A DNA stretch of 28,006 nt, from positions 1 through 28,006 of IMG/VR virus record IMGVR_UViG_3300046751_000325. One strand, 5' to 3'. This DNA is from a virus. Of this stretch, positions 2,730 through 21,199 are shown one piece after another. Every line of letters starts with the position of its first letter. The stretch's first letter is position 1. The notes under the pieces were generated by a model that saw nothing but the letters and a program-made list of their open reading frames with translations, ran no database searches and was not told the DNA's origin. The position numbers and the translations under genes were made by a program.

Positions 2730-2760
2730 CATAAAGAAGCTGAGAAGAACAATGCACAAA
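2730..2760 (-). promoter_or_regulatory. Putative late promoter P1 (TTTGTGCATTG motif) before the tail fibre
   Basis: The motif TTTGTGCATTG at 2760-2750 (minus strand) lies in the 70-bp gap between the large internal protein and the tail fibre, 46 bp before the fibre ATG. A -10-like TTTATG at 2735-2730 lies 18 bp beyond TTGTGC. The same 11-mer precedes two other leftward genes. Confidence 0.5.
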
Positions 2761-2774
2761 TAATCTAAGACAAA

Positions 2775-5700
2775 TTACTGTCTGTTAGGCAAATAACCAG
2801 TAAGATCTTTTGCAGTATCTTTTATAATATCGCCAGTCGCCATTGTTTCTATAAGTGGCGTCATACGAATAAGACCCTTAGCTCCGTCTTGGACATCGCC
2901 AGAAAGCATCTGCCCAATAGAACTTAAAACTTCATAGCTCCAATCAGCAGGGGCGCCACCTAAAGAAACTAATGCACCAATCTTATCTGGTGGAGCTTGA
3001 AACTTTGGCTGAATAGGAAAGTTATTTTCTAATCCCATTTCACTAGCCATTGCTATACCACGATAAACCATATCGCTATAAATTGCTGCAAGACCTGAGA
3101 AGTCAAAAGATCTCATAATCTTATCTTCAACGTCCATATCCTTCCAAGCCCAGCTTGGAGTGCGAGCATTTACAATCATATACCCAAGACCCATAGCGAC
3201 AGCTACATGGGACAAACGATTGCGAACCGCACCAGAAGCATGGTTGGCAGTAATCTTACTTAAAGCACCCATTGTATAGCTATAGAAAGTAAACGGTAAA
3301 GCAAGCAGACCACTTTCTACTCTACGATAACCTTTAACTCTAGGATCAACCGCAGTTTTAAACGGAAGCATTTTAGCTAAATGTTCCGGAATATAAGCAA
3401 TGCCACTCATTACAATTGGTTTGTCTGCTGGCGTACCCATAATTACTCTGTTCATAACGCCAGAAGATAAAGCATTTCTAAATGCAGTAACCGCTGCTTC
3501 GTCCGTCCAACCCTCTGTGTTTGGCAAAAATAAACCGCCTTGGCTCTTTTCATAAGGAGAGTCAGCTATTCGCTTAGCTATCTTTGGGGTAATATTATAT
3601 CTAGCCAAAAACTCTTTCTCAAAATTGCTAGCCTTACCTGTGCCCAGTTTAATAGCTGAGTCAATAATAGTATGGCCGCGAAGTAAGCCATCAAATGTTT
3701 TAATGGCTACAGTAACAGGAGCCAAACCATTCATAATATAAAAAGCATTATTTAACTTGTCAGGAATAGTCTTGCTAAAGACATCATTCGTAAGGCTTTC
3801 CATGTACCGCAAGTGAGTTATGCCACGAACAATCTCTAGTGCTTCACCAGCAAGATTAAGCTCTCTCTTAGATGCCTTTAAAGATATATCGTCCATTGTG
3901 CCAAGCACTGACTTGCCAATAGCTTTAAGCTCATGATCCATAAACAAAGACGCAGCGTCACCAACCGCTGCTAATCCAGAGCCGCCAAGAAACGTCCAGC
4001 TTGTTGCTGTTCTAAGAAAGTCAGCTACTTTAGTATCTATAGCATCAGGACGTTTAAGAGTTGTGCCGACAACTTGATCGTATATCGCAACAAAGTTCTT
4101 AATAAACTTATTTATTGTAGCTTCATCAACACCATCTTTAATAAGCCTAGATCTGTAATAATCTATTCTTCCCTCTAGCGGCATTATCTGATTAGTTTCT
4201 GGATCACGAAAACGTTTGTGATACTCTAGTCGAGGGCCAACACGATTGGTGTAAGCAATCATAACTTCCTTAATGTCAGTCACGATGTAGTCTTTAATCA
4301 AGTGATTAGGAATATTAAGGCGACGAGATACAAGCGGGCCGCTGCGACCAAATCCAGTAAAGATTGCATCGACAGCATCTTCGTCTGTTTCTCCAAGAAT
4401 ATTGTCTATAGTTTCGTTGGCTCTACGCTCAAGAGATACAGGGTCAGTTGCTAGCTCTTGCTTTTTAAATAGCTTGTCATCACCCTTAACAATAATCTGT
4501 GGGTTTTCACGAAACCAATTCATTAAGATATTCTTCAAACCCTCTCGGTCTGATTCAATCTTACGACGATTAAAGATGCGCATAAGGTAATTGTTAGGAG
4601 ATTTAACTGATGGCATTTCATCCATCATATCCATAGCATTATTAATTCTAGACTTTGTTTCATCCATAGCCTTAGCAAGATCTTGCAAAGCACTACGCAT
4701 GTCGGCCGTAAGATCTAACTCTTTATAAAGCAAAGCTAGTTCATCAATTGATTTTGCATTTTGTATTTTATCAAATGCGTCATCAAACCTTCCTACTAAG
4801 TCTTGTTTCATAACAAGTTCTTTTTCTAAATCAGATTTAAAAGTAACCTGCTTATTGGTCAGACCTCTTGTAGTAGAGGTTTTGTTTAGTTGCTTAAGTT
4901 TATTGTTTATTTTTTCTATGTCTGTTGAAAGCCTATCTTGCTGTGGGCGCATCCATCGTTTGTTTTGCTCAACAATGCTTTTGGTAACGCTTTGAAGCTC
5001 CATCTGACGGCCAACATTTTTTAAATAGTTGTCTTCAAAAAGATCCTTTGGATTAATAAGACCAACTTCTTCTAGTTCTTTCCCATACTGCTCAAAGAAG
5101 CTACGAGCGGCTTGCACTGATGCTGCTTCCTGCGGTGTCATTTTTTCATATGGCACTTCATCAACCATTAAACGGCCAACATGATTGTACCATTCGTCAG
5201 GTGCAAAGCTGTCTTTGCCTAACTTACGACGAACACGCTCTACATACTCTCCAACAGGAACATTGAAGAACTCAGCAGAACCACGTGGGCTTACCTCACG
5301 ATAGTTTTGATTAATAACATCAAGAGCTTTAAACCAATCACCTTGACGTCTTGCAGATTCAGTAAAAGCAGAACTGCCTACACTTTTACCAAGCTGGTTC
5401 ATAGCATAAGGCATACCATTGTCGCCACCAATTTGGAGCATGTCCATCTTAGCCCAGTCTGGTAGTTTTTTGTCTTGTATAGTTACACGAAGGGGCGTTG
5501 GTATCGCCTTCATAAACCAAGAGTTAGTAAACCACTCACCTGTAAACGATAAGTCTTCACCTCTTTTTGCTGGCTCATCAGAAACACTATTGAGATATTC
5601 TTTATACTTACGACCAAACGTTGCTTGTCTGGCTTGCGCAGAAATAGGTCTATTCAATGCTGTACCTATGCCAAAGCCAAGAAGACCGCCAACAGCTGCT

Positions 5701-6344
5701 GTGCCCATTGTGTAGAGCGCTGCGTTGCCTATTTCAGTTGCTGGGTCTTCACCCTCGCTAATCTCAGTAAGCGCCTCAGTAAGCGTTATGCTGCCATCTA
5801 CGATCGCTGCATCCAGAGCGCCTATCTTAGAAAGATCTTTAGCGGTGAGGTCTTTGCCTCTCATTAATTGCCTTGCGCGTGCAGCTTGCCTAAGACCAGA
5901 TGTAGAGCCTAAAGCATTAAGACCTTTGCCAAGGTGCAAAGAAGCCGCAACGCCACCGTAAGGAATGGCAATAGACGCATGAAGGCTAGGATCAGTAAGA
6001 AATAAATTAAGACCAGTAGAGCGATTTAATACGCTATAGTTATCTCTACGTTTTTGTATGAACTCTAGCGCAGAAGTAAAGTTATCTTGAGAGCCAATCC
6101 CAAACAAGCGAAGATAGCGAGCATCCTCCTCATTAAGTCCCTGCTTTTCTATTATTGTTTCAACACGATCAATTGACTCTGGATCATAGGTTGAAGCTCT
6201 TGAATAAAAATTTAACTGGTTCTTTATTGGGTTAAACAGTCTTCCATATTGAGCATTCCCCGTTTGCCCAAGTGTAGGCACTGTAGATTGCACTGGCTGT
6301 CTACCAACATTAAACGGCTCTGCTTCTGGAACAACTATCTTCAT
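2775..6344 (-). CDS. Large internal virion / ejection protein, T7 gp16-like by position
   Basis: This 1189-residue protein is the last and largest of three consecutive internal-protein genes downstream of the tail-tube genes, the place of T7 gene 16 (1318 residues). Its ATG overlaps the stop of the upstream gene by four bases (ATGA). A Gly/Ala-rich hydrophobic stretch at about residues 206-230 could insert in a membrane. Residues 450-620 are charged and helical, and the last 250 residues hold further hydrophobic helices. Such proteins are injected to form a channel for DNA across the host envelope. I see no lytic transglycosylase motif near the N-terminus, which T7 gp16 has. The assignment rests on size, order and general character, not on residue-level homology. 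Confidence 0.75.
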   Translation of the reverse strand: MKIVVPEAEPFNVGRQPVQSTVPTLGQTGNAQYGRLFNPIKNQLNFYSRASTYDPESIDRVETIIEKQGLNEEDARYLRLFGIGSQDNFTSALEFIQKRRDNYSVLNRSTGLNLFLTDPSLHASIAIPYGGVAASLHLGKGLNALGSTSGLRQAARARQLMRGKDLTAKDLSKIGALDAAIVDGSITLTEALTEISEGEDPATEIGNAALYTMGTAAVGGLLGFGIGTALNRPISAQARQATFGRKYKEYLNSVSDEPAKRGEDLSFTGEWFTNSWFMKAIPTPLRVTIQDKKLPDWAKMDMLQIGGDNGMPYAMNQLGKSVGSSAFTESARRQGDWFKALDVINQNYREVSPRGSAEFFNVPVGEYVERVRRKLGKDSFAPDEWYNHVGRLMVDEVPYEKMTPQEAASVQAARSFFEQYGKELEEVGLINPKDLFEDNYLKNVGRQMELQSVTKSIVEQNKRWMRPQQDRLSTDIEKINNKLKQLNKTSTTRGLTNKQVTFKSDLEKELVMKQDLVGRFDDAFDKIQNAKSIDELALLYKELDLTADMRSALQDLAKAMDETKSRINNAMDMMDEMPSVKSPNNYLMRIFNRRKIESDREGLKNILMNWFRENPQIIVKGDDKLFKKQELATDPVSLERRANETIDNILGETDEDAVDAIFTGFGRSGPLVSRRLNIPNHLIKDYIVTDIKEVMIAYTNRVGPRLEYHKRFRDPETNQIMPLEGRIDYYRSRLIKDGVDEATINKFIKNFVAIYDQVVGTTLKRPDAIDTKVADFLRTATSWTFLGGSGLAAVGDAASLFMDHELKAIGKSVLGTMDDISLKASKRELNLAGEALEIVRGITHLRYMESLTNDVFSKTIPDKLNNAFYIMNGLAPVTVAIKTFDGLLRGHTIIDSAIKLGTGKASNFEKEFLARYNITPKIAKRIADSPYEKSQGGLFLPNTEGWTDEAAVTAFRNALSSGVMNRVIMGTPADKPIVMSGIAYIPEHLAKMLPFKTAVDPRVKGYRRVESGLLALPFTFYSYTMGALSKITANHASGAVRNRLSHVAVAMGLGYMIVNARTPSWAWKDMDVEDKIMRSFDFSGLAAIYSDMVYRGIAMASEMGLENNFPIQPKFQAPPDKIGALVSLGGAPADWSYEVLSSIGQMLSGDVQDGAKGLIRMTPLIETMATGDIIKDTAKDLTGYLPNRQ

Positions 6345-9300
6345 TGATTTGGCTCTGTCATTTCTATTTGCAATGCATTGCTAAGAGAATTGTACGACTC
6401 TCTTTTTGTTCTAAAGATATTTAACGCCATATCATCTTCGCCAAATATTTTGTTGTACTCTCTCATTTTGCCAATATCAGATAAGAACATTTCTTCAGTC
6501 ATGTGATCTAATGTTGCTATGTAATTAATTTCAGCAATAGCCTTGCTGCCAGCAGGTGCATCCGCTTTAACCGCAGTTTGCAAATTATTGAGAGATTGAA
6601 ATCTCATATCAGCTTTTCGATCAGCTTGAACCCTTGGCTTTTCTAAAGTCAAAGCTGTGTCATTAACTATGATTGGCTCAAACCCACCGTAATCATTTAT
6701 GTACCCTACCTCGTACATAGGTTGGCCTTGGTTAAATGAAGACACAACGGGCTTATAACTCAACTCGATATTTAAAGCTTGCAGCCCTCTTCTTAACCTG
6801 TCTCTATCACTTAGTTTTTCACTAGCTCCAACGCCGCTAGTAAACTCTTCAACAATAGCTCTCGATGTAAGCAAAAGATTGCCGCCAATAGTATTTGCAA
6901 AACCAGCAGCGGCTGAATCTAATGCAGTTCCACCTTTTAAAAGGTCGTTAAACAAACCAGAATCAGCAATAAGATTAGTTACATCTTCTCTATGCGCGGT
7001 AATTTCAGAATCTGCAAAAAAATTATTCCTAGCATATACAGTGCTGTCACCAATATAAGACCCGATAACATTAGGATCTGTTCGCATATTTGAGGTGTAA
7101 TCATCTATTATAGAAGATATTGAATCCTCAGTAATTACATTGCCTCTTACCTTTTGCATCCGAAGCATTGCTAATATTTCTTTTTTATAATTAGCGCTCA
7201 TTGGGTAAGCGTCTAATGCTCTTCCAATGTTTGCATTCTTAGATAAATCAAGATCTGCTTTAATATCAGCATCAATGTTGCCATCATAATTTCTAAACTC
7301 AAGCGCAATTGCTAATGGCTCTACACCCTCTGCACGAGCAGACTGACTTATTGCAGAGTATAAAGCATACGACTCTGGGCTAAGATTCTTACGCATTATA
7401 TCTAAACCAGTACGCCGACCATCTTCTGTAACAGCTTCAAGATTAGAATAACGCTCAAATGCTTGGATGCCAGCATTTAAGTTGTCTTCGTTATTTGATG
7501 TTAAAGCAGATTCTAAAGCAACCTTAGCAGATGGAAGAACAACGCCTTGATTAAGACCATCTACAATTTGTGGAAAATCAAACATAGTTCCAGCAGTTAC
7601 AATAACATCTCCAAACAATTGCTTGTCATAAAATGCTAGCTCATCAGAGCTAACATCAGCAAGATTACTTTCAATATCATCTATTCTAACGCCATTAATG
7701 TATCTATTGTTTTGATTTGTAGATGCTGTTAACTTTCTATCTAGGTAAGCAGATGTACTTGCAGGATCAAACTTGTAAGCTTCTCTTAATAAGTCATAAG
7801 CCTCCTTAGCATTGCCTGTTAGATTTGTTTCTTCTTGAGTTATTGCATCCTTTAGTTCCTCAAGATCTACTGTACTTAACTGTATTCTATCGGCCCTAAC
7901 TCTTGATTGAAGAGCAAAGTTTTCTCTAGCAGCAGTTATTAAAGTTTGCTGAGTTCTTTCATCTAATCCAGATGCTTCTATGTTTGATAAAGCAGACTGA
8001 AAGCTTGCATTTAAATTAGTAGCGTTTTGAAAATCAATTAGACTTTGACGCAATATGTTTTCTTTTTCTAAGTCAGCAACACCTTCCATCCTAGATAAGG
8101 CCGCACGTCTATCAGATATTTCTGTCGCAAGATTAGACCTTTGTTCTTGAGTCATTGTCTGAATCATGCCGGCTACTTTATCACCATGACTTCGACCAAA
8201 CGCATCTTTATTACCACCAATTAAATCAGCTATTGCTTGGTAATCTGGTGATGCTTCATTCTGGAGCGCTTCAGATATAATGTCTAAATCGGAAGACTTT
8301 TTGCCAGCCACATCTAAATTCTTCTCTACCCAGTCAGCAAATAATTCTGTTCCTACTTTCTTTGCAACATTATCATCTTCGATATTTAATATCATCCTTG
8401 ATATATCATTGGCTGTTGTAGATGCACTTATTGTTGGAGCAAGCTCAGATATATAGCTATTAACTTCAGACTCTACATACTCTTCGCTAATAGAAGAAAA
8501 TGAATCTAAACCAGCAAGTAATGTTGGTATACTTGTTGTTATTTTTGCCTCTATAGCTAAAGCTTCTAAATTATTACTTTCTATTTTTTCAGCAAGCTCA
8601 GACATAATTCTTGGATTTGTAAGCCCAAGCTTAAACATAGATTGATCTGAAGGTGAAAGCATAGAGTATATATCTATAAGATTGTTATTTGCAGACAGGC
8701 CTTGAAGTCCATCAATGCGATCATTGGCTGACTTCCACGATGCAAACGTTATGCTGTTTGTGTTTTTTAAGTCTAAGTATTTAGCACGAAGAGAATTAGA
8801 CAAAGCCAAGATGTCTTCATCAGATCCACCAGCAGCAATAAGATTGCCCAGCTTTTTTTCGTCAAGATAACCAGACATCAGCTGTTGATTTGTTAATGCT
8901 TTCTTTGCTGCTTCAGCTTGTTTCTTTGCTAATGATGCATATGTACTTGCAACATACTCAGAGCCAGCTTCCTTAATGTAAGTGCTATAAGCAGTTGCCT
9001 CACCTTCTGAATTGTACATTTCCTGTATGTAGTTGGTCATACGATTTTTGTACTGATCAGCGGTTGAGGAGCTTGATGCAAACTCTGAACCTTTAGATGC
9101 AAACTCATCAAGGATTGCTTCTTCAAATCTACGATCAATCATATTTTGATATGATCTAGCAGCAATAGATCCAAATGATGCTGGAGGCGTATAAGCCACA
9201 GGCATATTAGTATCTGGATCTATTGCTATAAGCTTGTCTGATGGCTGAGCTTTAGCGGCCTGTTGTCCAGCCCTCTCTGCATTTATAGCAGCTTCTCTAT

Positions 9301-9427
9301 AAGCTAACTGAGAAATCCTAGAAGCAGCATTGCTAATTGCCTGACCTACTTGAGCAGCACCAGCATCTGTCCTTACAACACCTACAGGCTGATTAAATAC
9401 TTGTGTTTTTTGTCTAATAACAGCCAT
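6341..9427 (-). CDS. Internal virion protein, T7 gp15-like by position
   Basis: The open frame extends to 9484, but the ATG at 9427 (MAVIRQKTQ) lies four bases past the upstream stop and is the better start, giving 1028 residues. The ribosome site is weak (GAGATAATAAA), which suggests translational coupling. The protein is Ala-, Asn- and Ser-rich, strongly helical, and has no membrane segment that I can see. Its first 200 residues have coiled-coil character (for example YASLAKKQAEAAKKAL). In T7 the gp14-gp15-gp16 set forms the core that is ejected into the host, and this gene sits between the gp14-like and gp16-like genes. It is longer than T7 gp15 (747 residues). The function is inferred mainly from synteny. 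Confidence 0.7.
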   Translation of the reverse strand: MAVIRQKTQVFNQPVGVVRTDAGAAQVGQAISNAASRISQLAYREAAINAERAGQQAAKAQPSDKLIAIDPDTNMPVAYTPPASFGSIAARSYQNMIDRRFEEAILDEFASKGSEFASSSSTADQYKNRMTNYIQEMYNSEGEATAYSTYIKEAGSEYVASTYASLAKKQAEAAKKALTNQQLMSGYLDEKKLGNLIAAGGSDEDILALSNSLRAKYLDLKNTNSITFASWKSANDRIDGLQGLSANNNLIDIYSMLSPSDQSMFKLGLTNPRIMSELAEKIESNNLEALAIEAKITTSIPTLLAGLDSFSSISEEYVESEVNSYISELAPTISASTTANDISRMILNIEDDNVAKKVGTELFADWVEKNLDVAGKKSSDLDIISEALQNEASPDYQAIADLIGGNKDAFGRSHGDKVAGMIQTMTQEQRSNLATEISDRRAALSRMEGVADLEKENILRQSLIDFQNATNLNASFQSALSNIEASGLDERTQQTLITAARENFALQSRVRADRIQLSTVDLEELKDAITQEETNLTGNAKEAYDLLREAYKFDPASTSAYLDRKLTASTNQNNRYINGVRIDDIESNLADVSSDELAFYDKQLFGDVIVTAGTMFDFPQIVDGLNQGVVLPSAKVALESALTSNNEDNLNAGIQAFERYSNLEAVTEDGRRTGLDIMRKNLSPESYALYSAISQSARAEGVEPLAIALEFRNYDGNIDADIKADLDLSKNANIGRALDAYPMSANYKKEILAMLRMQKVRGNVITEDSISSIIDDYTSNMRTDPNVIGSYIGDSTVYARNNFFADSEITAHREDVTNLIADSGLFNDLLKGGTALDSAAAGFANTIGGNLLLTSRAIVEEFTSGVGASEKLSDRDRLRRGLQALNIELSYKPVVSSFNQGQPMYEVGYINDYGGFEPIIVNDTALTLEKPRVQADRKADMRFQSLNNLQTAVKADAPAGSKAIAEINYIATLDHMTEEMFLSDIGKMREYNKIFGEDDMALNIFRTKRESYNSLSNALQIEMTEPNQ

Positions 9428-9431
9428 TTTA

Positions 9432-9881
9432 TTATCTCGTTGTTTCGTATCTATAAATACCTTCTGAGGCAGTACCAATTGCACTAAACATAGCAGCGCT
9501 TAAAGCGTTACGCCCACGGCGTCTTTCAGCCATAGCTGCCATACTTGCCTTCATATTTTCAAACTGAGTTTGCTGGTCTATACGACTAACATCTTGGGCA
9601 ATAATTTCTTTTTGCCTTTCTAAAAAGGCTTCAACACTTCTATCTGATCCAATGTCACGACCGGATGCAGAAAATGCAGCAACATTAGTAGAGGTCGCTA
9701 AGTCATATTGCTCACGCCTAGCCCTTGATGCTTGTAAAGCTTGAACTTTATTTATTTCTTTGTCGGTTTGTATCTGAAATGCGTTTAACTCAGATGCTTC
9801 CCTTTGAGCCTGTCCTGCAGATATTTGACCAAACACACTTAATACAGTTGATCCAATCAGGGCAGTTTCCAATAATGCCAT
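9432..9881 (-). CDS. Small internal virion protein, T7 gp14-like
   Basis: This 149-residue protein starts with a hydrophobic segment (ALIGSTVLSVFGQISAG, residues 6-22). A long charged helical stretch follows, rich in Gln, Glu, Arg and Ala, and a short hydrophobic tail ends the protein. Its ATG shares one base with the stop of the tail-nozzle gene (TAATG). T7 gp14 (196 residues) has the same layout and forms the part of the ejection channel set in the outer membrane. The family call combines position directly after the gp12-like gene with this profile. No catalytic motif is expected or seen. Confidence 0.72.
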   Translation of the reverse strand: MALLETALIGSTVLSVFGQISAGQAQREASELNAFQIQTDKEINKVQALQASRARREQYDLATSTNVAAFSASGRDIGSDRSVEAFLERQKEIIAQDVSRIDQQTQFENMKASMAAMAERRRGRNALSAAMFSAIGTASEGIYRYETTR

Positions 9882-13137: not shown

Positions 13138-13153
13138 GGGGGCTTTCGCCCCC
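13138..13153 (-). terminator. GNRA-capped hairpin after the capsid gene, possible partial terminator
   Basis: On the minus strand a six-pair stem, GGGGGC and GCCCCC, closes a GAAA loop, seven bases after the capsid stop codon. A weak tail (TAACTTCTTATG) follows instead of a clean U-run. The hairpin could slow or partly stop transcription, or protect the capsid message end. T7 has its main terminator at the same point, just after gene 10. Confidence 0.5.
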
Positions 13154-13159
13154 CTCCTA

Positions 13160-13969
13160 TTAGTTGTTGTCGAGAACTTCAAACACACCGTCATCATCGA
13201 TAACGACAGAGCCCATAGACATCATTGATGTCGCAAGGTGCGCTACCTTCTGCGGTACATAATTGACCTCGGTCTGAACATCAGAGTTAATACCAATGCC
13301 TACAGCACGAGCGTGGTAAGCAAAGTTTTTGCCGCCAGCTACCGCTGAAGTTGAGAAGATCTTGAATCCCAAGAACTCTTTCATTGTCATGCCACCAGCA
13401 AACGGAAGGCTTTGTGGCCCAACGTAATCTGATGAAGCAAACTCATTAATGTTAAACAAGTCAGCAAATCCAGCAGGAGACATAGCTAAGTAACGCTGTC
13501 CGTCTTCCGGAATATCTTCTGCACCAAATGTTTGAAACAAGGTCAGAAGATCTGCTTTTTCAATCGCTGAAGATGTATCGTGGATTTGAGTTGAGTTAGC
13601 ACCAGCATCCATAGCTGCTACAATCAAAGCATCAGTTTGGCGACCCAAGGCAGCAGCAGCAGATTGCGCTACAGCTTGACGCTCGTTGATGTTGATTTTC
13701 AATTCATCCAGCTTGTCGATATACTCAGCTGCATAGTAATCAGCCATAGTTGCTTCGACATTGGTGTGCGCTAGTTCCATTGTAGAAACATCGCCATTGC
13801 GTGTTTTAGTTGATGCAGTGCCTTTTCCAATTACTTGGAAACGTGCAGTTGAACCAGTCACATTGGTTGAGCGTACTGTGTTGCGGAGTTTAGAACCCAT
13901 ACGCTGATATGCCATGTGAACTTCTGATTCAAACTGTTTGATAAAAGCTTGGTCAATAGTATTAGCCAT
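13160..13969 (-). CDS. Major capsid protein (short)
   Basis: This 269-residue protein lies just downstream of the scaffold cluster and just upstream of the tail-tube genes, the place of T7 gene 10. It has the composition of an HK97-fold capsid subunit: an Ala/Gly/Asp/Asn-rich body, a central helix (QAVAQSAAAALGRQTDALIVAAMD) and a C-terminal strand region ending FEVLDNN. It is clearly shorter than T7 gp10A (345 residues), so it probably belongs to one of the compact capsid families. The ATG at 13969 follows an AGGA ribosome site. No frameshifted longer form is evident at the 3' end, because the hairpin starts seven bases after the stop. Assignment is by synteny and protein character. Confidence 0.82.
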   Translation of the reverse strand: MANTIDQAFIKQFESEVHMAYQRMGSKLRNTVRSTNVTGSTARFQVIGKGTASTKTRNGDVSTMELAHTNVEATMADYYAAEYIDKLDELKININERQAVAQSAAAALGRQTDALIVAAMDAGANSTQIHDTSSAIEKADLLTLFQTFGAEDIPEDGQRYLAMSPAGFADLFNINEFASSDYVGPQSLPFAGGMTMKEFLGFKIFSTSAVAGGKNFAYHARAVGIGINSDVQTEVNYVPQKVAHLATSMMSMGSVVIDDDGVFEVLDNN

Positions 13970-14048
13970 TTTACAGTCCTATTTTGAAGTTACAGTTGCC
14001 AACGGGTATCCACTCTTTCACTTCAGCAAGGGTATCCTTTCGGGCCTT

Positions 14049-14570
14049 TCAGTGCGTTATGGGCCGTAATTCCCCATCGTAAACACTTTTTTGATTTGGA
14101 TTGCAACGCACAAAATCAACGTACTTATGCGGAGGTGATATGCTTACACCTACCGGCTCAAAGCCAAGCCACACCGCCCAGTCTACCATGATCTCATAAT
14201 CAGCAAGTATAGTCATGGTCATTTGAGGTTGCGTTTGCTCTAAATAGTTAAGCAACATCTTTGAGCCGCGAGCAATAGATGTAAAGTTTTCTTTGATTTT
14301 ATGAGAAAACATAAAGAACATCTGCGGGTAATCTTGGTCTTCGTTATACCAAAGGCCACCAACTGCAGTAAATACCTCACCCTCCTTGCGAACTAGGTAG
14401 CATTCAGAGCATTCGTACATTTCCATAATGGCTTGCTTAATATCCAAGTGTCCAAGGATTTTAAGCTCTCTTATATTCTCATGACTTAGATTGGCAGCAA
14501 CCTCATCAATATGGTCAAGAGTAAAAGGGGTTAAGTAGAACTCACCCCTCTTAAGAATCTTAACCTCCAT
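14049..14570 (-). CDS. GNAT-fold protein resembling T7 gp13
   Basis: This 173-residue protein has a GNAT-like layout: an N-terminal strand and helix (FYLTPFTLDHIDEVAANL), a central strand pair (CYLVRKEGEVFTAVGGLW), and a C-terminal segment ending WAVWLGFEPVG, which resembles the end of N-acetyltransferase domains. T7 gp13 and its relatives have this fold and aid virion assembly without known enzyme activity. The stretch where acetyl-CoA would bind lacks a clear Q/R-x-x-G-x-G/A motif, so catalysis is doubtful. It overlaps the scaffold gene by 11 bp and precedes the capsid gene, whereas T7 gene 13 follows gene 12. A genuine acetyltransferase is the alternative. Confidence 0.6.
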   Translation of the reverse strand: MEVKILKRGEFYLTPFTLDHIDEVAANLSHENIRELKILGHLDIKQAIMEMYECSECYLVRKEGEVFTAVGGLWYNEDQDYPQMFFMFSHKIKENFTSIARGSKMLLNYLEQTQPQMTMTILADYEIMVDWAVWLGFEPVGVSISPPHKYVDFVRCNPNQKSVYDGELRPITH

Positions 14571-15288
14571 AAAGACGCTTAAAGCCTTCTTCTACCTGCT
14601 TAACATAAGCAGTGTCATTCTTATCCCAGTATCTAGGATCTTGCATCATTTGATCTAACTCAGCTTGAGTTGTCTGACCTGTAGGCTGAGTGCCATCAGA
14701 AAACGAACCATCCTTAGTTGCCTCCATGATTGCCTCAAGAGCAAGAATACCTTCATGACTTTCACACATGCGCTCAATAGCTGGCAGAGATTGCTCAGGA
14801 AAAAACTTGTTTGCAAACATAGACGCTGCTTGAATGCGATCATTTGCATTGTCACCAAGCTTTGAAGCTTCAGCCTCAAGATCAGGTTGGCTTCCATTAA
14901 TGGCTTGAGCATACATCTCAATGCCTTTCTGAAACTCTTCTTGACCATAGCCGTTTTCAAATGAATGCTCTGACCACCACTGCAGTAACTCATTGTCTAC
15001 AGCAAGATCATTATCAACAATATCAGGAAGCTGATAATCACCAGCAGAATCAGGCCGATCCCCAAATGCTTCTGTTTGAATTTCCTCAAGAAGCTTGTTG
15101 CGAATGTCTTCTTCCTTAGTTCCCAGCTTTGACTCAAGCTCTTTGTATGCCTTAGCTAAGTCTTCACCACTGCTATACTTCTCAGGCAACCATTCAGGAC
15201 GTTCTGGCTGACTATCTTCTGCTACAACAAAGTCACGCTGCTCTTCTGCTGCTGGCGCTTCATTGCCTTCCATCAAGCTCTCGCTCAT
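14560..15288 (-). CDS. Capsid assembly scaffolding protein, T7 gp9-like
   Basis: This 242-residue protein is strongly acidic and rich in Glu, Gln and Ala. It has a disordered N-terminus, a segment rich in charged helix (YSSGEDLAKAYKELESKLG) and a basic-aromatic C-terminus (VEEGFKRLYGG), the usual layout of phage scaffolding proteins, in which the C-terminal helix contacts the capsid protein. The motif PEWLPEKYSSGEDLAKAYKE is typical of podovirus scaffolds. The gene lies between portal and capsid. Its ATG overlaps the stop of the small upstream gene by four bases. T7 gp9 is 307 residues long. Confidence 0.85.
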   Translation of the reverse strand: MSESLMEGNEAPAAEEQRDFVVAEDSQPERPEWLPEKYSSGEDLAKAYKELESKLGTKEEDIRNKLLEEIQTEAFGDRPDSAGDYQLPDIVDNDLAVDNELLQWWSEHSFENGYGQEEFQKGIEMYAQAINGSQPDLEAEASKLGDNANDRIQAASMFANKFFPEQSLPAIERMCESHEGILALEAIMEATKDGSFSDGTQPTGQTTQAELDQMMQDPRYWDKNDTAYVKQVEEGFKRLYGG

Positions 15289-15545
15289 TTGTTCTTACTC
15301 CTATGTGAATGTGCAATACGCTGCTCAATCAAGCCAACAATATAACGCTGGCCCTCTATATGTCGCAACTCTTCCGTAGTCACATTAGGCCCATTAACCA
15401 TTTCTATGGTAACGGAACGCAAATAACGAAGAACCTCTTTGCCCGTAGGGGTATTAAATATCTCAGCAATGTTCTGACTTATTTGAACATCCTTGTCAGA
15501 ACCTCTCTGGATTCCATCTAATCCGATATTAACTTTGTTCGGCAA
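15285..15545 (-). CDS. Small protein between portal and scaffold, unknown function, TTG start
   Basis: This 86-residue frame has no ATG. A TTG at 15545 with AGGA seven bases upstream, inside the portal 3' end, is the best start. The gene overlaps portal by 17 bp and scaffold by 4 bp (ATGA), so it is embedded in the head operon and probably coupled. The product is helical, with a basic C-terminus (EQRIAHSHRSKNK), and contains the segment GKEVLRYLRSVTIEMVNGP. Podoviruses often carry a small unnamed gene at this place. I do not recognise the family. Confidence 0.65.
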   Translation of the reverse strand: MPNKVNIGLDGIQRGSDKDVQISQNIAEIFNTPTGKEVLRYLRSVTIEMVNGPNVTTEELRHIEGQRYIVGLIEQRIAHSHRSKNK

Positions 15546-17058
15546 TCATCTGTCCTTGCTGTTGTTGCGCCATTTGCTGCGCTAATGCAGCTATTTGTCT
15601 ACGCTGTTCTTCGTCACGAATCAAGCTCTCTGGCACACCAAATTTTTTCGCAAGGTGAATTGCTGTTTGTTCACCGTCAATTAGAAGCTGCAACATCTCT
15701 GGGCCAAAGGCTCCACCAACCAATTCAAGGAAGCGAGCAACGCTCGAAATGTCCTGATTTGATTGAGCTTGTGCAAGGGGAGACACAGAACGGACTTTAA
15801 CTTCCCGTCCGTTTACTGTAGGAACTTCTATGCGGCCCTGCTTCTTTAAGATGTATATTACACGCTGAAGTACGGGCTGCACGAGCTCTGCTTGCAGACG
15901 CCCAAATGCAGATCCCATTCTTCTAGCCAAGTCACCCATACGCTCCGCTACCTCAGTTGCAGTTGCAGGTGTTTTATCAGGGTTCCCAAGCATGTCGTTG
16001 TATAGAGCCCGCTTAATATTCAAGCGCATGTCACTAAGAACAAGCTGCGCTACATCAAACCGACCAGCGGCTTGTATAGGCTGAAGACCAGCAGAACCCA
16101 TAGCTTTCGGTATGATAGATCCGGGCACTAAATTAATCGTGTCAGGGTTGATTACGCCATCATCTTCCATCTGGTAAATACCAGAGATAGACATCTGAGC
16201 ATTCTCAAGGATAAGCTCGATAGTAAGATTCGTAGTCTTAATAGCAGATAGAGCGTTAAGCAGTGGGCCGCGTCCATAAATCTCACCAGCACACTTGCCC
16301 CAACGAAAGCAAACAAAGGGATTAGAGCCAAGACCAGTCATCTCTTTAGCGTAAAGCAAAGTCTTAGTAGTCATGCAGATCGCATAGTGAAAGTAAGCTT
16401 CTTCATTCTTCTTTTTGTAGTCGCGGCAAACAACCTCAAGCACAGTCGTTTCACGATCAGATCCCATTAAGGAAGTTACCTTTTGGTCAAAGGTTCCCTT
16501 GGGATACATAATAGGAAGATGATCAAACTTAACCTTTTTTCGTTCACGATAAACGTGATCGATCTTATCATCGGGACCGGTGTCAAGGACCACATGAGGG
16601 AGCGGAATTGCTGAGAAGTTTACAGGATTGATTGCATCCCCCTCTTCTACGCACAAGACACCAGTACCCACAGCCAAATCCATGAAGGATTCATGAACCT
16701 CTTGGCTGAAATTAGAGTTTTGAAGAACCTCAAATACATATTCAGTTACTTCATCAAGCTCATTATCTATAGCTTCACGCTGATCTGGCGGCACTTCACT
16801 ACCAGCCATAAGATCAGCCCATCGAGCAAAGTTAGGAACTAAGCCAGACTGCAAGCGGCTAGCAAACTCCTGCACACCAACCACTGCCGTTTCGTCAAAG
16901 ATCTTATCATCTCTGCGCTGACCAGCTTCTTCATAATAAAATGACTCACGCTGAGGCAAAGCATACTCATAGCATTCCTCAAACAACGGAACCCAGTTCT
17001 CACGAAAGGCTTTTGCCTTCTGATAACTTTGAATATATTGCTTTGCTATATCAGCCAT
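15529..17058 (-). CDS. Portal protein (head-to-tail connector), T7 gp8-like
   Basis: This 509-residue protein (T7 gp8 has 536) forms the twelve-fold ring through which DNA is packaged and ejected, and which seeds capsid assembly. Recognisable podovirus portal segments include the N-terminal WVPLFEECYEYALPQRESFY, LQSGLVPNFARWADL, and the central region NDMLGNPDKTPATATEVAER before the long clip/barrel helices. The C-terminus is Gln-rich (ALAQQMAQQQQGQ), as is usual for barrel tails. It is coupled to the upstream small gene by TAATG. The position after terL and before scaffold agrees. Confidence 0.92.
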   Translation of the reverse strand: MADIAKQYIQSYQKAKAFRENWVPLFEECYEYALPQRESFYYEEAGQRRDDKIFDETAVVGVQEFASRLQSGLVPNFARWADLMAGSEVPPDQREAIDNELDEVTEYVFEVLQNSNFSQEVHESFMDLAVGTGVLCVEEGDAINPVNFSAIPLPHVVLDTGPDDKIDHVYRERKKVKFDHLPIMYPKGTFDQKVTSLMGSDRETTVLEVVCRDYKKKNEEAYFHYAICMTTKTLLYAKEMTGLGSNPFVCFRWGKCAGEIYGRGPLLNALSAIKTTNLTIELILENAQMSISGIYQMEDDGVINPDTINLVPGSIIPKAMGSAGLQPIQAAGRFDVAQLVLSDMRLNIKRALYNDMLGNPDKTPATATEVAERMGDLARRMGSAFGRLQAELVQPVLQRVIYILKKQGRIEVPTVNGREVKVRSVSPLAQAQSNQDISSVARFLELVGGAFGPEMLQLLIDGEQTAIHLAKKFGVPESLIRDEEQRRQIAALAQQMAQQQQGQMIAEQS

Positions 17059-17291
17059 TAGCCAAACCTACCTAAGAATCCACCGCCACCGGCTCTAAAC
17101 AAAGAACGGCGACCAGCACCACCACGCATACCGCTTCTGCGAGTTCTGTTTTCTAAAGCTGCAGAAACATCTTCACGCTTTTGCCTAGCTCTTTTTTGAA
17201 TCTCTTCAGATTTAGCTTGCTCAGCTTCTATTCTTTGATCTGCTGCTGCTTGCTTTTCAGCCTGACTAGGGCCGCCGCCACCAAAACACAT
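17058..17291 (-). CDS. Small Gly/Arg-rich protein (MCFG type) upstream of portal
   Basis: This 77-residue protein begins MCFGGGG. It has a charged helical middle (QAAADQRIEAEQAKSEEIQK) and a Gly/Arg-rich tail (GGAGRRSLFRAGGGGFLGRF). A strong ribosome site (AAAGGAG, seven bases before the ATG) and the promoter motif P2 precede it, so it heads the portal-scaffold-capsid transcript. Small proteins of this kind occur just before portal in marine podoviruses, but I know no function. The 58-residue protein at 20625-20801 shares its ends (MCFG start, RRSL near the C-terminus), which suggests a paralogue. Confidence 0.8.
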   Translation of the reverse strand: MCFGGGGPSQAEKQAAADQRIEAEQAKSEEIQKRARQKREDVSAALENRTRRSGMRGGAGRRSLFRAGGGGFLGRFG

Positions 17292-17320
17292 ATTAATCTC
17301 CTTTGTTTTTTACTCGTAAG

Positions 17321-17350
17321 CATAGAAGATAGAAAACATCAATGCACAAA
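17321..17350 (-). promoter_or_regulatory. Putative late promoter P2 (TTTGTGCATTG motif) before the portal operon
   Basis: The 11-mer TTTGTGCATTG occupies 17350-17340 on the minus strand, in the 62-bp gap after terL, 49 bp before the ATG of the MCFG gene. A -10-like TCTATG (17326-17321) lies 17 bp past TTGTGC. The gap also holds a run of six T right after the terL stop, which overlaps the start of the motif. Confidence 0.5.
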
Positions 17351-17353
17351 AAA

Positions 17354-18877
17354 CTACAGCCGTGACCAGAAGCTAGGTTTGTTTCTCTGTTTTGCGCCTC
17401 TACTAAACACATCAAAGTTACGCTTGGCAACCACTGGCCTTGCTGGCTTTTGACTGTTCATCAAAGCCCTGCCTTCACCAGCACCCAAGAATAAATACTG
17501 AGCCGCATCGTGAACGTGGCTAAACATATTCTTATCTGGTTTGTCTGCGTACCTCTCACCGCTTACTTCCATACGCTTATAGGCATAGCCACCTTCAAAC
17601 CCTTTAATTAACTGGGGACAACGCCTGTCTATTAGTAGTGCTGGCTTACCTTCGACCATCTTCGTCAACTGGGAGGAAACCGACTCTAGTCGGAGGTCAA
17701 CAGAGTTGGAAGGCGCAGGAAACGCCTTCAAGCCAGCACCGCGCAGAATATGAAAGGGAGTCGATTCATCAGTCTGCGCTCTAAAATCACCCGCAGGATC
17801 GCCGTAAATAATTACCTCAGAGGCAGCAGCAAACCTAGTAGATAGTTCATTTCTAAGAACCTCGGCAAAACGCACGATGCCCATGTCTACCGCCACAATT
17901 TCTGACTGTAGAAACCACCGCCCCCTTACCTTTTGACCAAAGACCGCAGCAGGAGTTAGACCAAAATCCACACCAACATAGACTGGCATGTTTGCAGCAA
18001 CGGGTATTTCTTCTTGAGCTATGTGAACTTCGGATGCAAACATTGGATATACAGGCTTTCCGTCTTGAATATGCCCCAATCGGTTCATCACATAAACATC
18101 TATCCATGATTTAGTCTTTCCTCGAATGAGGTTTGGATAGTAGCTCTTGAGCATGTTCTTTGTGTTTTCAGCCTTTGGGTTTGGATCATAGTCTTCTATT
18201 TCTCCGTCTTCTGTTTTCCTCTCAACCATACCAGCGGGCTGGGTAAAGAAAGACCAGTTATCTGGTTTGACCAGCATCTTAGCTTGCTCACGCGGAATAT
18301 GATCTGGGATTGGAACTTCGCCAGACATAATCGGCCACCAGTGATCTTCCTCAGGGGCGTTTGTATCGGCAATAACGCCAGTCCAAGAAGGCCCACCATC
18401 ACGCATAGAAGGAAACCTGCCAACACGCATCGTACAGGCATCGATAATACTCTTGGGAATCTCCCTAGCTTCGTTGATCCAGATCCCCGTAAGCTCCAAA
18501 GAAAGAAGCTTCTTAACGTCTTCGGGCCTATCAAGAGCCAAGAAAAGAACCTCAAGATCTATGTCTCCCTTTTGAATGCGGTGGGTGTATGGCACTGACC
18601 AAGTAAACTTGCCCCAGTCTGATTCCGGAAACCAGTCTAGCCAAGTCTTGATAGTAGTAGTTCTAAGCTGTGGATTGGTATTACGAATAATAGCCCAGCG
18701 GCTTTTGCGTATTCCGTCTGGGCCTTTCTTCTGTTGAATAGCGCGGCGAAACACTTCAACACAACAGCCAACAGATTTACCAGAACCAACTGGGCCTCTT
18801 ACGCCACGAAAGAAGGTGTCATCTTTCATAAAGGTTTTTAGTACATTACCATCAGGCTTGTACTTAAAGTCTATCAT
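17354..18877 (-). CDS. terL: Terminase large subunit
   Basis: This 507-residue protein is the ATP-driven DNA-packaging motor and genome-cutting nuclease. The Walker A motif GPVGSGKS is at residues 28-35, and a Walker B-like strand with the catalytic Glu (IWINEARE) is at 132-139. The RNase H-like nuclease has its three acidic positions in place: VDFG (D304), GDPAGD (D360) and HVHDAAQY (D457). Length is normal for the family (T7 gp19 has 586). The ATG overlaps the upstream stop by four bases and has a poor ribosome site, so translation is probably coupled. The sequence gives no reliable statement about the packaging mode. Confidence 0.95.
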   Translation of the reverse strand: MIDFKYKPDGNVLKTFMKDDTFFRGVRGPVGSGKSVGCCVEVFRRAIQQKKGPDGIRKSRWAIIRNTNPQLRTTTIKTWLDWFPESDWGKFTWSVPYTHRIQKGDIDLEVLFLALDRPEDVKKLLSLELTGIWINEAREIPKSIIDACTMRVGRFPSMRDGGPSWTGVIADTNAPEEDHWWPIMSGEVPIPDHIPREQAKMLVKPDNWSFFTQPAGMVERKTEDGEIEDYDPNPKAENTKNMLKSYYPNLIRGKTKSWIDVYVMNRLGHIQDGKPVYPMFASEVHIAQEEIPVAANMPVYVGVDFGLTPAAVFGQKVRGRWFLQSEIVAVDMGIVRFAEVLRNELSTRFAAASEVIIYGDPAGDFRAQTDESTPFHILRGAGLKAFPAPSNSVDLRLESVSSQLTKMVEGKPALLIDRRCPQLIKGFEGGYAYKRMEVSGERYADKPDKNMFSHVHDAAQYLFLGAGEGRALMNSQKPARPVVAKRNFDVFSRGAKQRNKPSFWSRL

Positions 18878-19191
18878 TTTTGCAGCAAACTCTTTTTAGT
18901 TGCTCCACCTTTTTTACTTCTTGTTTTTGCAGCTTCTACAGCAAGCTCTATAGTATTATATCTAGGAAACTTTTTGCCAGTTCTATCCTCAAATGACTTA
19001 GCTTCATTCCAAGCCTTATCTCCTTTTAAAAATTTAGGCTCTTTTGTTTCTGAATCAAACCATATTGTCGGTATGTTCCAAGCCTTTCCTTCTGGAGATT
19101 GCTCACTTGCTAAATATTCTGTAGCAGATCTACCTCCAACAGTTTTTATTGGCTTGTGTTTTTTAGGGTCAAACGGAATTAAATCAGCCAT
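18874..19191 (-). CDS. Conserved-looking phage protein of 105 residues before terL
   Basis: The product contains AWNIPTIWFDSETKEPKFL, then GKKFPRYNTIELAVEAAKTR and a Lys-rich tail. I recall the arrangement 'NIPTIW ... G-x-x-FP-x-x-x-T-x-x-x-A-x-x-x-A' as a recurring short domain in phage proteins, including parts of large virion proteins, but I cannot name a function. It is coupled by TAATG to the upstream gene and by ATGA to terL. The gene is a well-supported member of the terS-terL cassette. A packaging accessory role is only a guess from position. Confidence 0.75.
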   Translation of the reverse strand: MADLIPFDPKKHKPIKTVGGRSATEYLASEQSPEGKAWNIPTIWFDSETKEPKFLKGDKAWNEAKSFEDRTGKKFPRYNTIELAVEAAKTRSKKGGATKKSLLQK

Positions 19192-19397
19192 TATCTTAAA
19201 CCTTTATCGACTCCAAAGCGGATCATATCCTCCACCACTTCTGGCGCAATACTTTCTATCAGCTTATCGCAAGCAGAGTCACTAACCAAGTGACTGCTTT
19301 CACCAAACTTCTCCACAACGTAAGCAAGATGAACCTTGCGCACAATGTTGCGCAAAAGATTTAAGTCTTCCTGTTTAATCGTGCTTATAAAGCTCAC
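19191..19397 (-). CDS. Small helical protein, unknown function, GTG start
   Basis: This 68-residue product is helical, roughly neutral, and has no recognised motif (KVHLAYVVEKFGESSHLVSD, then a C-terminal VVEDMIRFGVDKGLR). The GTG at 19397 overlaps the stop of the upstream mini-gene (GTGA), which supports this start, and its own stop overlaps the next ATG. Unlike most members of the cassette it is not Lys/Arg-rich. Confidence 0.68.
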   Translation of the reverse strand: MSFISTIKQEDLNLLRNIVRKVHLAYVVEKFGESSHLVSDSACDKLIESIAPEVVEDMIRFGVDKGLR

Positions 19398-19555
19398 TTC
19401 TTAGCAGCTTTCTTTTTTGGGGCTGGCTTTGGGTCTGGCCCTTCAACAAGTCGCCGCGAAGAAGAAGTTCGAGTAGCCCCTGAGTAAGTTGTACCGCCCA
19501 ATGTGTGAGTCGGCCCTGTGTAAATCTTATTATCGTTTGCTGTGTACCAAGCCAT
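19394..19555 (-). CDS. 53-residue basic mini-protein (MAWYTAN type)
   Basis: A short complete frame begins MAWYTANDNKIYTGPTH, continues GATRTSSSRRLVEG and ends in a Pro/Lys tail (PKPAPKKKAAKK). Small phage proteins with a similar start, followed by Thr/Gly-rich and SSSRR-like segments, are familiar to me from marine phages, with no known role. The gene starts two bases after the stop of the upstream mini-gene and overlaps the GTG of the next by four bases. That tight fit is the main evidence that it is real. Confidence 0.68.
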   Translation of the reverse strand: MAWYTANDNKIYTGPTHTLGGTTYSGATRTSSSRRLVEGPDPKPAPKKKAAKK

Positions 19556-19556
19556 G

Positions 19557-19721
19557 TTAGCCCAAGTCTTTCTCTAAAAGCTCTTGAAGCGGCTGTCCAA
19601 TAGAAGGCTTAGCCTCTTCGTACATGGCCTCAATCATTTCTAATTGATCTTTAAGGCTGTCAGACTTTAAGACAGCACTTGCCATCTGTTTAAAGCGCCA
19701 CACTTGAGTTACTTCATTCAT
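19557..19721 (-). CDS. 54-residue helical mini-protein
   Basis: The product runs MNEVTQVWRFKQMASAVLKS through an acidic helix to a C-terminal LQELLEKDLG. The start overlaps the stop of the upstream gene by four bases (ATGA), and AAGGAAG precedes it. An overlapping ATG four bases further in leads at once to a stop and is excluded. The family is unknown. Confidence 0.65.
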   Translation of the reverse strand: MNEVTQVWRFKQMASAVLKSDSLKDQLEMIEAMYEEAKPSIGQPLQELLEKDLG

Positions 19722-19954
19722 GTTCTATACTTCCTTACTTTCCGAGCAATAGCTTTCGGTTGAGCCACAAATTGCTTACCCGCAGCCTTACCCTTTCGTT
19801 TAGCTCTGGTTGTAGCTGCATATTCAGCATCACTAAGAGCAGCGATAGCCTTAGAAGGTAAGTAGCGCTCACCAGTCTCACTAGACTTCTTGCCAGACTT
19901 AGTGCGCCACTTTTGTTTCCCCCAATTAAGCAGCGATTTTTGCGATGGTCTCAT
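19718..19954 (-). CDS. 78-residue very basic protein, possible nucleic-acid binder
   Basis: About 30 percent of residues are Lys or Arg, with a conserved-looking core: LLNWGKQKWRTKSGKKSSETGERYLPSKAIAAL is followed by AEYAATTRAKRKGKAAGKQF. I recall close relatives in large marine phages as proteins of unknown function. The basic charge suggests DNA or RNA binding, which is inference only. The gene overlaps the upstream mini-gene by 29 bp and the downstream one by 4 bp. Confidence 0.75.
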   Translation of the reverse strand: MRPSQKSLLNWGKQKWRTKSGKKSSETGERYLPSKAIAALSDAEYAATTRAKRKGKAAGKQFVAQPKAIARKVRKYRT

Positions 19955-20075
19955 GCTCTAACCAAATATATCCACAGCCAAGGTCATCAACCTTGCAGGT
20001 AAACTTTATATCCCGAAGTTGAAGCTCATCAATAATATTAAGCATCATATTTACACTGCAAAATTCAATTCTCAT
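19926..20075 (-). CDS. 49-residue mini-protein
   Basis: A complete frame begins MRIEFCSVNMMLNIIDELQL and ends HETIAKIAA. It has one of the best ribosome sites in the window (GGAGG seven bases before the ATG), and its start overlaps the preceding stop (ATGA). In composition it differs from the surrounding basic proteins: it is acidic to neutral, has three Cys, and looks like an alpha/beta fold. The function is unknown. Its 3' end overlaps the next gene by 29 bp, which is long for this cluster. Confidence 0.62.
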   Translation of the reverse strand: MRIEFCSVNMMLNIIDELQLRDIKFTCKVDDLGCGYIWLEHETIAKIAA

Positions 20076-20239
20076 TTATATCCTCCACCAGCAGCCTTGT
20101 ACCGCTTTGCTAAGAGTTGCGCTTTTCTTGCTGACCACTTGCCAGCAGCAGTGCCTTGAACGTTAGCAGCCTTTATTCTGCTGAACAAAGACTTCCGCAT
20201 CTTGGGCTTGGTGTAGTTACCAGCTGCATTAACCGCCAT
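20072..20239 (-). CDS. 55-residue basic protein of the 'GKWSARKAQLLAKRYK' type
   Basis: The second half, GKWSARKAQLLAKRYKAAGG followed by GYK, is a signature I know from short proteins in many phages and viruses, which I believe correspond to the DUF5872 family. The function is unknown; a basic helix with W-S-x-R-K could bind nucleic acid. The first half (TKPKMRKSLFSRIKAANVQG) also fits that family. The start lies 11 bp inside the upstream gene, and the stop overlaps the next ATG. Confidence 0.72.
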   Translation of the reverse strand: MAVNAAGNYTKPKMRKSLFSRIKAANVQGTAAGKWSARKAQLLAKRYKAAGGGYK

Positions 20240-20492
20240 CTTGTTCCTCGCTTATGTTCTTTTGACTGCGGAACCTTTCAGCCGAAGTCTTCTCCATCTT
20301 CTTAACTTTCTTCAGAAGGTTCTCGCGCTTCATGCTAGTAACCATCTGTCCATCAGAAGTGCCAAGAAACTCTTTAACCTTGCGGCGCAACTTAGTCACC
20401 ATAGAGTAATCTTCGGGCGTACTTTCTAATTGCTTAGATAACAACGAATAACGAGCATTCATTCTATCGCGGGGCGATTGTCCTTTAGGCAT
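20229..20492 (-). CDS. 87-residue basic helical protein
   Basis: The protein starts MPKGQSPRDRMNARYSLLSK. It is almost wholly helical with many Lys, Arg and Glu, and ends in an acidic Gly tail (EEQDGG). Heptad-like spacing around residues 30-70 (VTKLRRKVKEFL, LLKKVKKMEK) suggests a coiled coil. It begins 8 bp inside the upstream gene. I do not recognise a family. Confidence 0.68.
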   Translation of the reverse strand: MPKGQSPRDRMNARYSLLSKQLESTPEDYSMVTKLRRKVKEFLGTSDGQMVTSMKRENLLKKVKKMEKTSAERFRSQKNISEEQDGG

Positions 20493-20625
20493 TCTTATTC
20501 TTCTTTGCTTTAGCAGCCATAATCCGCTTCTTTAAAGAATCAGGCAAAGTCTTCTGAGCGCCAGTCAACAAAGACTTCTTAGGGCGACCAACCTTAGATC
20601 CGTAAGTTCCTTTTCCCTGTGGCAT
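20485..20625 (-). CDS. 46-residue Lys-rich mini-protein (MPQGKGTYGSKVGRPKK type)
   Basis: The start MPQGKGTYGSKVGRPKK is a motif I have met in short proteins of marine phages. The rest is a basic helix ending KAKKNKNA. AGGAGG lies six bases before the ATG. The start overlaps the upstream stop (TGATG), and the stop lies inside the next gene. The G-R-P-K core resembles an AT-hook, which would suit minor-groove DNA binding. This is inference. Confidence 0.68.
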   Translation of the reverse strand: MPQGKGTYGSKVGRPKKSLLTGAQKTLPDSLKKRIMAAKAKKNKNA

Positions 20626-20801
20626 CAATAACCTCCTAATAAACTTCTGCGCTTCATGCCCTTCCGACGATACGGAACATCCGCTAACTCCTGCTCAGGG
20701 CGATCAATAGGCTTCATACTCAAAGAAGGAAGCGGCTGATCTTCAGGCTTCCTCTCTTGATACATCTGTTCGGCACTCTTGCCTCTACTACCAAAACACA
20801 T
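20625..20801 (-). CDS. 58-residue MCFG-type protein, possible paralogue of the pre-portal protein
   Basis: The product begins MCFGSRGKSAEQMYQERKPE, has a Pro-rich centre (QPLPSLSMKPIDRPEQ) and ends YRRKGMKRRSLLGGY. Both ends match the 77-residue gene before portal: an MCFG start and a basic tail with GM, RRSL and Gly. The middles differ. It is tied to both neighbours by TGATG overlaps. A short Met-Cys-Phe-Gly start could be a lipidation or metal site, but no signal peptide precedes it. Confidence 0.68.
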   Translation of the reverse strand: MCFGSRGKSAEQMYQERKPEDQPLPSLSMKPIDRPEQELADVPYRRKGMKRRSLLGGY

Positions 20802-21070
20802 CAGCTTTTCTTATGCCTCCTTGCAAAGTTACGAGCCGCCTCAACAGAACCAAAGCCCCACTTCTTTAAGGCCAACGCCTTTCTAGTAGGGCGGCCCTTC
20901 TCATCTTTCATCGGGCCCTTCATACCAGCAAACCGAGCAGCAAAAGAAACACGCCTTGGATTCGTACCACTCTTTAATTGACGCTTTAAATTAGCGCCCT
21001 CAGTCCGCTTGAAATAAGCACGACCCGCAGCAGTCAATCCACCAGTCTTACTCTTGTGCTCTTTTCGCAT
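20801..21070 (-). CDS. 89-residue basic phage protein, DUF6321-like
   Basis: The protein contains SKTGGLTAAGRAYFKRTEGA and NLK near the start, GPMKDEKGRPTRKALALKKW in the middle, and ends NFARRHKKS. This pattern matches what I recall of the DUF6321 family of marine phages and related viruses, which has no known function. The ATG at 21070 is preferred over an upstream GTG at 21079, since relatives start with MRK/MAR followed by Lys-rich sequence. It overlaps the upstream mini-gene by 23 bp. Confidence 0.75.
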   Translation of the reverse strand: MRKEHKSKTGGLTAAGRAYFKRTEGANLKRQLKSGTNPRRVSFAARFAGMKGPMKDEKGRPTRKALALKKWGFGSVEAARNFARRHKKS

Positions 21071-21155
21071 GCCCAACACTCTTCAATGCAGCCTTCGCAA
21101 CACTCGTATCCGCTCTAGGCGGCTGTGCCTCAGGCTCTCTCTTATACCTACTCAT
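21048..21155 (-). CDS. 35-residue mini-protein, first gene after promoter motif P3
   Basis: A short frame, MSRYKREPEAQPPRADTSVA then KAALKSVGHAKRAQE, starts 34 bp after the TTTGTGCATTG motif, with GGGG before the ATG. It overlaps the next gene by 23 bp. Its size makes it the least certain coding call in the cassette. The alternative is that the motif drives the 89-residue gene directly and this is leader sequence. Confidence 0.5.
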   Translation of the reverse strand: MSRYKREPEAQPPRADTSVAKAALKSVGHAKRAQE

Positions 21156-21169
21156 AAAATACCCCTACA

Positions 21170-21199
21170 CTAAAAAAAATATAACTGACAATGCACAAA
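21170..21199 (-). promoter_or_regulatory. Putative late promoter P3 (TTTGTGCATTG motif) after terS
   Basis: TTTGTGCATTG at 21199-21189 (minus strand) is followed after 17 bp by TTTTAG (21175-21170). It lies in the 114-bp gap between terS and the mini-gene cassette. The same gap holds an inverted repeat, GGGGGAA (21225-21231) and TTCCCCC (21256-21262), next to the terS stop. Confidence 0.48.

Follow-up and report, generated by a model that had tools for sequence, protein, structure and literature searches.

An 11-bp box recurring before the late operons of uncultured marine phages, with a small helix-turn-helix protein as its candidate activator

The window analysed here is the whole of a linear viral stretch of 28,006 bases (IMG/VR virus record IMGVR_UViG_3300046751_000325), and comparison with its relatives indicates that the 11-bp word WTTGTGCRTTG is a genuine late-gene switch sequence that a large group of uncultured marine phages carry in front of their virion genes. 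With a probability of about 0.7, we favour an activator-dependent late promoter read by the host RNA polymerase, for which c37, an 85-residue protein encoded in the early region (25454-25711, plus strand), is the candidate activator. The word would constitute the recognition box of this phage-specific promoter and would stand at the head of four late units of transcription, all on the strand of the virion genes: the terminase or minigenes, the portal operon, the capsid operon and the tail fibre. c37 would bind the box and recruit host polymerase, which would make use of a poor extended -10-like element, TGnTTA, located 16-19 nt downstream, so as to start late transcripts roughly 30 nt after the box. 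Such a late box with its candidate activator would be a fresh variation on a known theme, that of phage activators redirecting host RNA polymerase. A literature search on the exact word returned, among the matches listed, none about phages by title.

As annotated, the minus strand of the window carries a T7-like virion module, with the terminase small subunit terS (21270-21641), a run of small genes (minigenes) between it and the terminase large subunit terL (17354-18877, with its stop at 17354), a pre-portal gene (17058-17291), the portal (15529-17058), a scaffold-like gene (14560-15288), a gene upstream of the capsid (14049-14570), the major capsid gene (13160-13969), tail tubes and internal virion proteins, and a tail fibre (2-2704) that runs off the contig. 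The early genes, including a RusA-like resolvase and a RecE-like exonuclease, lie on the plus strand from about 22.4 kb. When searched with megablast, the window matched none of the described phage records. Among named phages, Pelagibacter phage EXVC031P Hodr comes nearest; it and related podophages share the divergent early/late layout, and its portal is 63% identical. Hodr differs, however, in that no box was found in the 28 kb scanned.

The preliminary description had reported three exact copies of TTTGTGCATTG on the minus strand, each in an intergenic gap and at distances of 34, 49 and 46 bp from the start codon that follows, and both the copies and the distances were borne out. The first (late box 1, 21189-21199) is found between terS and the minigenes, and the start of the minigene cassette said to follow it is present at 21155, with the correction that it opens a 35-codon ORF. 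The second (late box 2, 17340-17350) lies between the terL stop and the pre-portal gene, and the third (late box 4, 2750-2760) precedes the tail-fibre gene; late boxes 1 and 4 occupy the same place in relatives. The list was incomplete, since it missed a fourth late-strand copy, TTTGTGCGTTG (late box 3, 14104-14114, minus strand), which has one difference and lies 135 bp before the capsid ATG in the 3' end of the 14049-14570 gene, as well as an exact plus-strand copy (781-791) antisense inside the tail-fibre ORF. The former is counted, on comparative grounds, as a real member of the set because relatives carry the box there; the latter is judged a chance match and no promoter. The chance expectation of about 0.01 copies was an underestimate: a first-order Markov model predicts 0.044 copies of the 11-mer in the window, and 0.12 when all four WTTGTGCRTTG words are counted. 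As the 11-mer had been picked in the window for being repeated, the relatives are its proper test.

For this purpose 80 portal relatives were fetched, and 50 whole IMG/VR records, mostly contigs that may be incomplete, were scanned for the box. WTTGTGCRTTG matched 129 times in 41 of the 50 records, on a single strand within each record, and the reversed pattern used as a control gave no match in the same 50. In the maps of G002, G004, G006 and G007 every box is on the virion strand. The places are those of the window: before the post-terminase minigenes, the pre-portal gene (mostly 45-50 bp before it), the capsid and the tail fibre; some relatives also have a box before the terminase small subunit. 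Of the 81 portal loci that could be scored, 66 have a box no more than 450 bp ahead of the portal gene, and most of the motif-free relatives that were read no longer have the gap that precedes the pre-portal gene. The portal tree needs three changes of motif state: it contains one large clade with the motif, neighbours that are free of it, and two tips at which the portal site has been lost; one relative, L031, has lost the portal box and kept the capsid box. Coding coincidence was considered as a source of the box, and explains one match that falls within the G049 portal gene, together with comparable ones in L019, L041, L060 and L082; it does not account for the intergenic sites. Had the motif lain mostly inside genes in relatives, the promoter reading would have been refuted, but apart from the capsid site and these few coincidental matches this is not what was found.

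The capsid site, where the box overlaps the codons of a conserved Phe-Val-Arg-Cys (FVRC) peptide, allows the constraint on the nucleotides to be separated from that on the protein. All 52 relatives with the portal motif read TTT GTG CGT TG(C/T) at this place. The valine codon is thus GTG in 52/52 of them, compared with 1/12 informative relatives without the motif, the other 11 using GTT, GTA or ATT; three further relatives, cut off before the portal gap, were left outside the 12. FVRC or a close variant is retained in motif-free relatives despite the codon change, and the peptide explains part of the capsid box, not its GTG codon. The capsid box is under nucleotide-level constraint beyond the peptide. 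Taken with position, strand and conservation in relatives, this constraint supports the original proposal of a phage-specific late promoter or activator box.

A motif search on 120 non-redundant sites yielded a downstream element,.TG.Tta.ga, with 6.8 bits per site compared with 4.2-4.3 in shuffles. Its spacing after the box is 17 nt at portal, 18 at capsid, about 16 at minigene and 19 at terminase sites; at fibre sites its position scatters. On the minus strand of the window the putative elements are TGCTTACGA at the portal site (17314-17322), which is extended -10-like, TGTTTACGA at the capsid site (14077-14085), TGTAGGGGT at the minigene site (21161-21169; placed by the class consensus, in an uncertain register) and TGACACAAG at the fibre site (2723-2731), which falls in the loop of a possible hairpin and whose register is likewise uncertain. 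The -10-like hexamers described earlier (TTTTAG, TCTATG and TTTATG) are present, but the element conserved in relatives is TGnTTA, overlapping or following them 16-19 nt after the 11-mer, and the reading of TTGTGC as an ordinary -35 with these hexamers as -10 found no support. No canonical sigma-70 promoter, with a TTGACA-like -35 and a TATAAT-like -10 at 16-18 bp spacing, was recognized: the late strand of the minigene site has no sigma-70-type match, and at the other three sites, judged from conserved elements only, the conserved parts are the 11-bp box and TGnTTA at a class-dependent spacing. TGnTTA looks like an extended -10 whose hexamer is poor, similarly to activator-dependent promoters, and because of this element we infer a transcript start about 30 nt after the box. 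At the capsid site a structured leader RNA begins 37 nt after late box 3, which fits this start but does not prove it.

A similar arrangement is known from the T4 middle promoters, at which host polymerase uses a MotA box together with a -10 (PMC2988021). In both cases a phage box would take the place of the -35 region and the host polymerase would be the enzyme, with no phage polymerase, and a -10/TGn element lies downstream. However, the MotA box has the consensus (a/t)(a/t)(a/t)TGCTTtA and is centred at -30 (PMC2988021), from which the present box differs in sequence and, with a centre at roughly -38 if the starts are as inferred, in position. Moreover, MotA is a two-domain double-wing protein whereas c37 is a small XRE helix-turn-helix protein, and the T4 promoters serve middle genes where the present ones would serve late genes.

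Two readers of the box had been suggested, host polymerase with a phage activator and a phage polymerase encoded outside the window. A T7-like polymerase would suit the T7-like structural genes, and, as with T7-type late promoters, the virion operons of this podophage share a single short sequence upstream. Nevertheless, seven relatives of 31-35 kb have no match to the T7-type RNA polymerase profile (PF00940), which found T7 itself as positive control (E 1e-109), and the maps of G002, G004 and G006 show no early gene large enough, the largest encoding about 280 aa. The present element is also bipartite and of another sequence, and box and downstream element span about 36 nt; a T7-type promoter is shorter. 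This second reader is largely refuted, and we give it hardly any credence. A sigma-like phage protein was rejected as well, since no sigma region 4 was found in near-complete relatives with a model that matched in 14 of 14 control genomes. The first suggestion, host polymerase with an activator, is favoured because there is no T7-type polymerase, no sigma region 4, and one XRE-type helix-turn-helix gene that tracks the motif. A common box upstream of co-regulated operons on one strand, in phages whose near-complete relatives have neither an RNA polymerase nor a sigma factor of their own, is what an activator-dependent promoter would present.

That gene encodes c37. The protein scores 32.8 bits against Pfam HTH_3 (cut-off 23; E 7e-8), and its AlphaFold2 model (mean pLDDT 82.6; helices at 19-32, 37-44, 48-55 and 63-72) has a helix-turn-helix fold, which together place it in the XRE/HTH_3 family. 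The model resembles XRE proteins of known structure in the PDB, including the P22 c2 repressor and restriction-modification controller (C) proteins, with weak Foldseek E-values (best 6e-3). The predicted recognition-helix residues are invariant across 27 homologues and the N terminus varies. A phyletic comparison set eight genomes that carry the motif against five that do not; among the 1,120 query ORFs with a match, only the c37 family, with its antisense shadow, was present in 8/8 of the former and 0/5 of the latter; the next closest, a tail-fibre domain, was 8/1.

The c37 gene was found in 26 of the 50 records, and all 26, plus the window, carry the motif. A neighbouring helix-turn-helix-like gene, c33 (25297-25581, plus strand), was considered as an alternative regulator and rejected, being present in motif-free relatives too, for which reason it served as a control for coverage of the early region. 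Six records have c33 without c37 and with the region of the following gene on the contig (in G048 judged by profile search only), and none of these has a promoter-like match: five are motif-free, and G049 has the single match inside its portal coding sequence. Apart from G049, motif-bearing records without a detected c37 also lack c33 or end inside it (G027), and they are fragments that do not cover the locus. The association, 27/27 vs 0/6, has p ~1e-6, a figure that ignores shared clade. The genes of c33 and c37 (together 25297-25711) share about 128 nt, read in different frames; in G004 and G005 the shared stretch is only about 20 nt because c33 is shorter there.

The motif phages form nearly one clade, so that few independent gains or losses stand behind the link with c37 and the association could be due to ancestry. 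On these grounds a host sigma factor or host regulator could recognize the box, with c37 as a passenger of the same clade. Against this stands the observation that c37 is the only regulator family among the 1,120 query ORFs to follow the motif, and that neither box nor c37 occurs in relatives whose portal and terminase genes are the same, which makes a host factor a rather improbable reader. Nor can co-occurrence alone tell activation from repression. The box could be a late promoter element read by host polymerase alone, with c37 keeping the late genes silent until replication; repression is a common role of XRE proteins, the P22 c2 repressor is among the nearest folds of c37, and co-occurrence is compatible with either direction of regulation. 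However, the sites have no convincing sigma-70 -35/-10 pair, the box would occupy about -43 to -33 relative to the inferred start, as activator sites typically do, and box and c37 gene are missing together. We hold repression to be unlikely, and c37 is probably the activator of the box, as judged from these comparisons.

Some features count against activation by c37. The box lacks the palindromic symmetry that is usual in targets of XRE dimers; the -10-like element is a poor one, spaced 16-19 nt from the box depending on the site class; Hodr encodes a related helix-turn-helix protein (44% over 55 aa) yet is box-free; and boxes are lost or variant in L031 and L015. The closest analogy for a small XRE protein as activator is given by the C proteins, such as C.EcoT38IS, C.AhdI and C.Esp1396I, and their C-boxes (PMC4824078). 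They share with c37 a small XRE fold, can activate host RNA polymerase and, in C.Csp231I, depend for DNA binding on SQE residues (PMC4824078) that also occur in c37. C-boxes are, in contrast, palindromic and precede the C gene itself, whereas the present box is asymmetric, heads virion operons and is absent from the early strand; the sole plus-strand copy in the window lies in the fibre gene and not before 25297-25711. Restriction-modification genes were not found beside c37, the neighbours matching PHROG families of RusA-like resolvase and exonucleases, and the rest having no assigned function.

The leaders bear on whether the word might act in RNA, in processing or translation, instead of as a DNA site. 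The capsid leader (14002-14067, minus strand) is a structured RNA without a match in Rfam: its alignment (A5) supports 17 pairs, with 97.5% of cells paired and two-sided changes in seven pairs, which 0 of 500 shuffles reach. Fibre leaders, too, often form a hairpin that extends to the Shine-Dalgarno sequence. The capsid structure is, however, conserved even where relatives have no late box, and a different leader follows the box at each site; action in RNA therefore seems very unlikely. Hairpins down to -26 kcal/mol can form in the fibre leaders of the window (2712-2749, minus strand) and of L216, L223, L226 and L348, pairing the post-box stretch with the Shine-Dalgarno region, inconsistently across relatives. 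Similarly, in the leaders of T4 gene e, soc and I-TevI a late promoter lies inside the hairpin arm that hides the ribosome site (PMC3014915), and by analogy only fibre transcripts from a local start would be free. The fibre structure is found in part of the relatives and as a group is barely above shuffled spacers, so that the likeness is a lead only; as a translational gate the hairpin was set aside, being strong in some relatives but with no consensus fold and with spacer shuffles pairing almost equally well.

Where the candidate activator gene is missing, the promoter gap of about 50 bp before the pre-portal gene is mostly missing too, and the capsid site is without the key codon. It is conceivable, though we would put it slightly below even odds, that a small XRE activator and four or five near-identical boxes form a late-gene module that marine podophages lacking an RNA polymerase have acquired or lost as a whole; if so, the group would have switched its late transcription strategy and kept the same virion genes. 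Podophages that have T7-like virions and lack an RNA polymerase are widespread in viral contig collections, and to our knowledge the timing of their late genes has not been described. The present finding supplies a specific promoter, a specific candidate for its activator and a naturally occurring group of relatives that have neither, which makes the question testable in a standard reporter assay with no phage culture.

Some further observations concern variant sites and the region upstream of terS. A subclade (L015/L364, L368, L370, L373, L376, L378, L381 and L383) has TTTGTACGTTG at the capsid site, and L015 has in addition TTTGTACATTG at the fibre site, so that two of its sites show the form TTTGTACRTTG; its portal site is the degenerate TTTTCCATTG. 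A specificity switch in this clade was considered, but the early region, with the regulator locus, lies off the contig, and a close relative, G051, mixes both forms. The divergent early/late intergenic region (21642-22400), about 750 bp with GC-rich stretches, contains a plus-strand sigma-70-like match at 21813-21842 and possibly holds an origin and an early promoter. Directly before terS lies a 23-base polypurine run, GGGGGGAGAGAGGGAGAGGGGGG (about 21764-21789, minus strand; also in L068, L078, L081, L043 and L045), which adjoins the terminase box where relatives have one. Viral contigs, those of motif-free relatives included, contain this run in at least 120 stretches, and it is perhaps a packaging or replication site.
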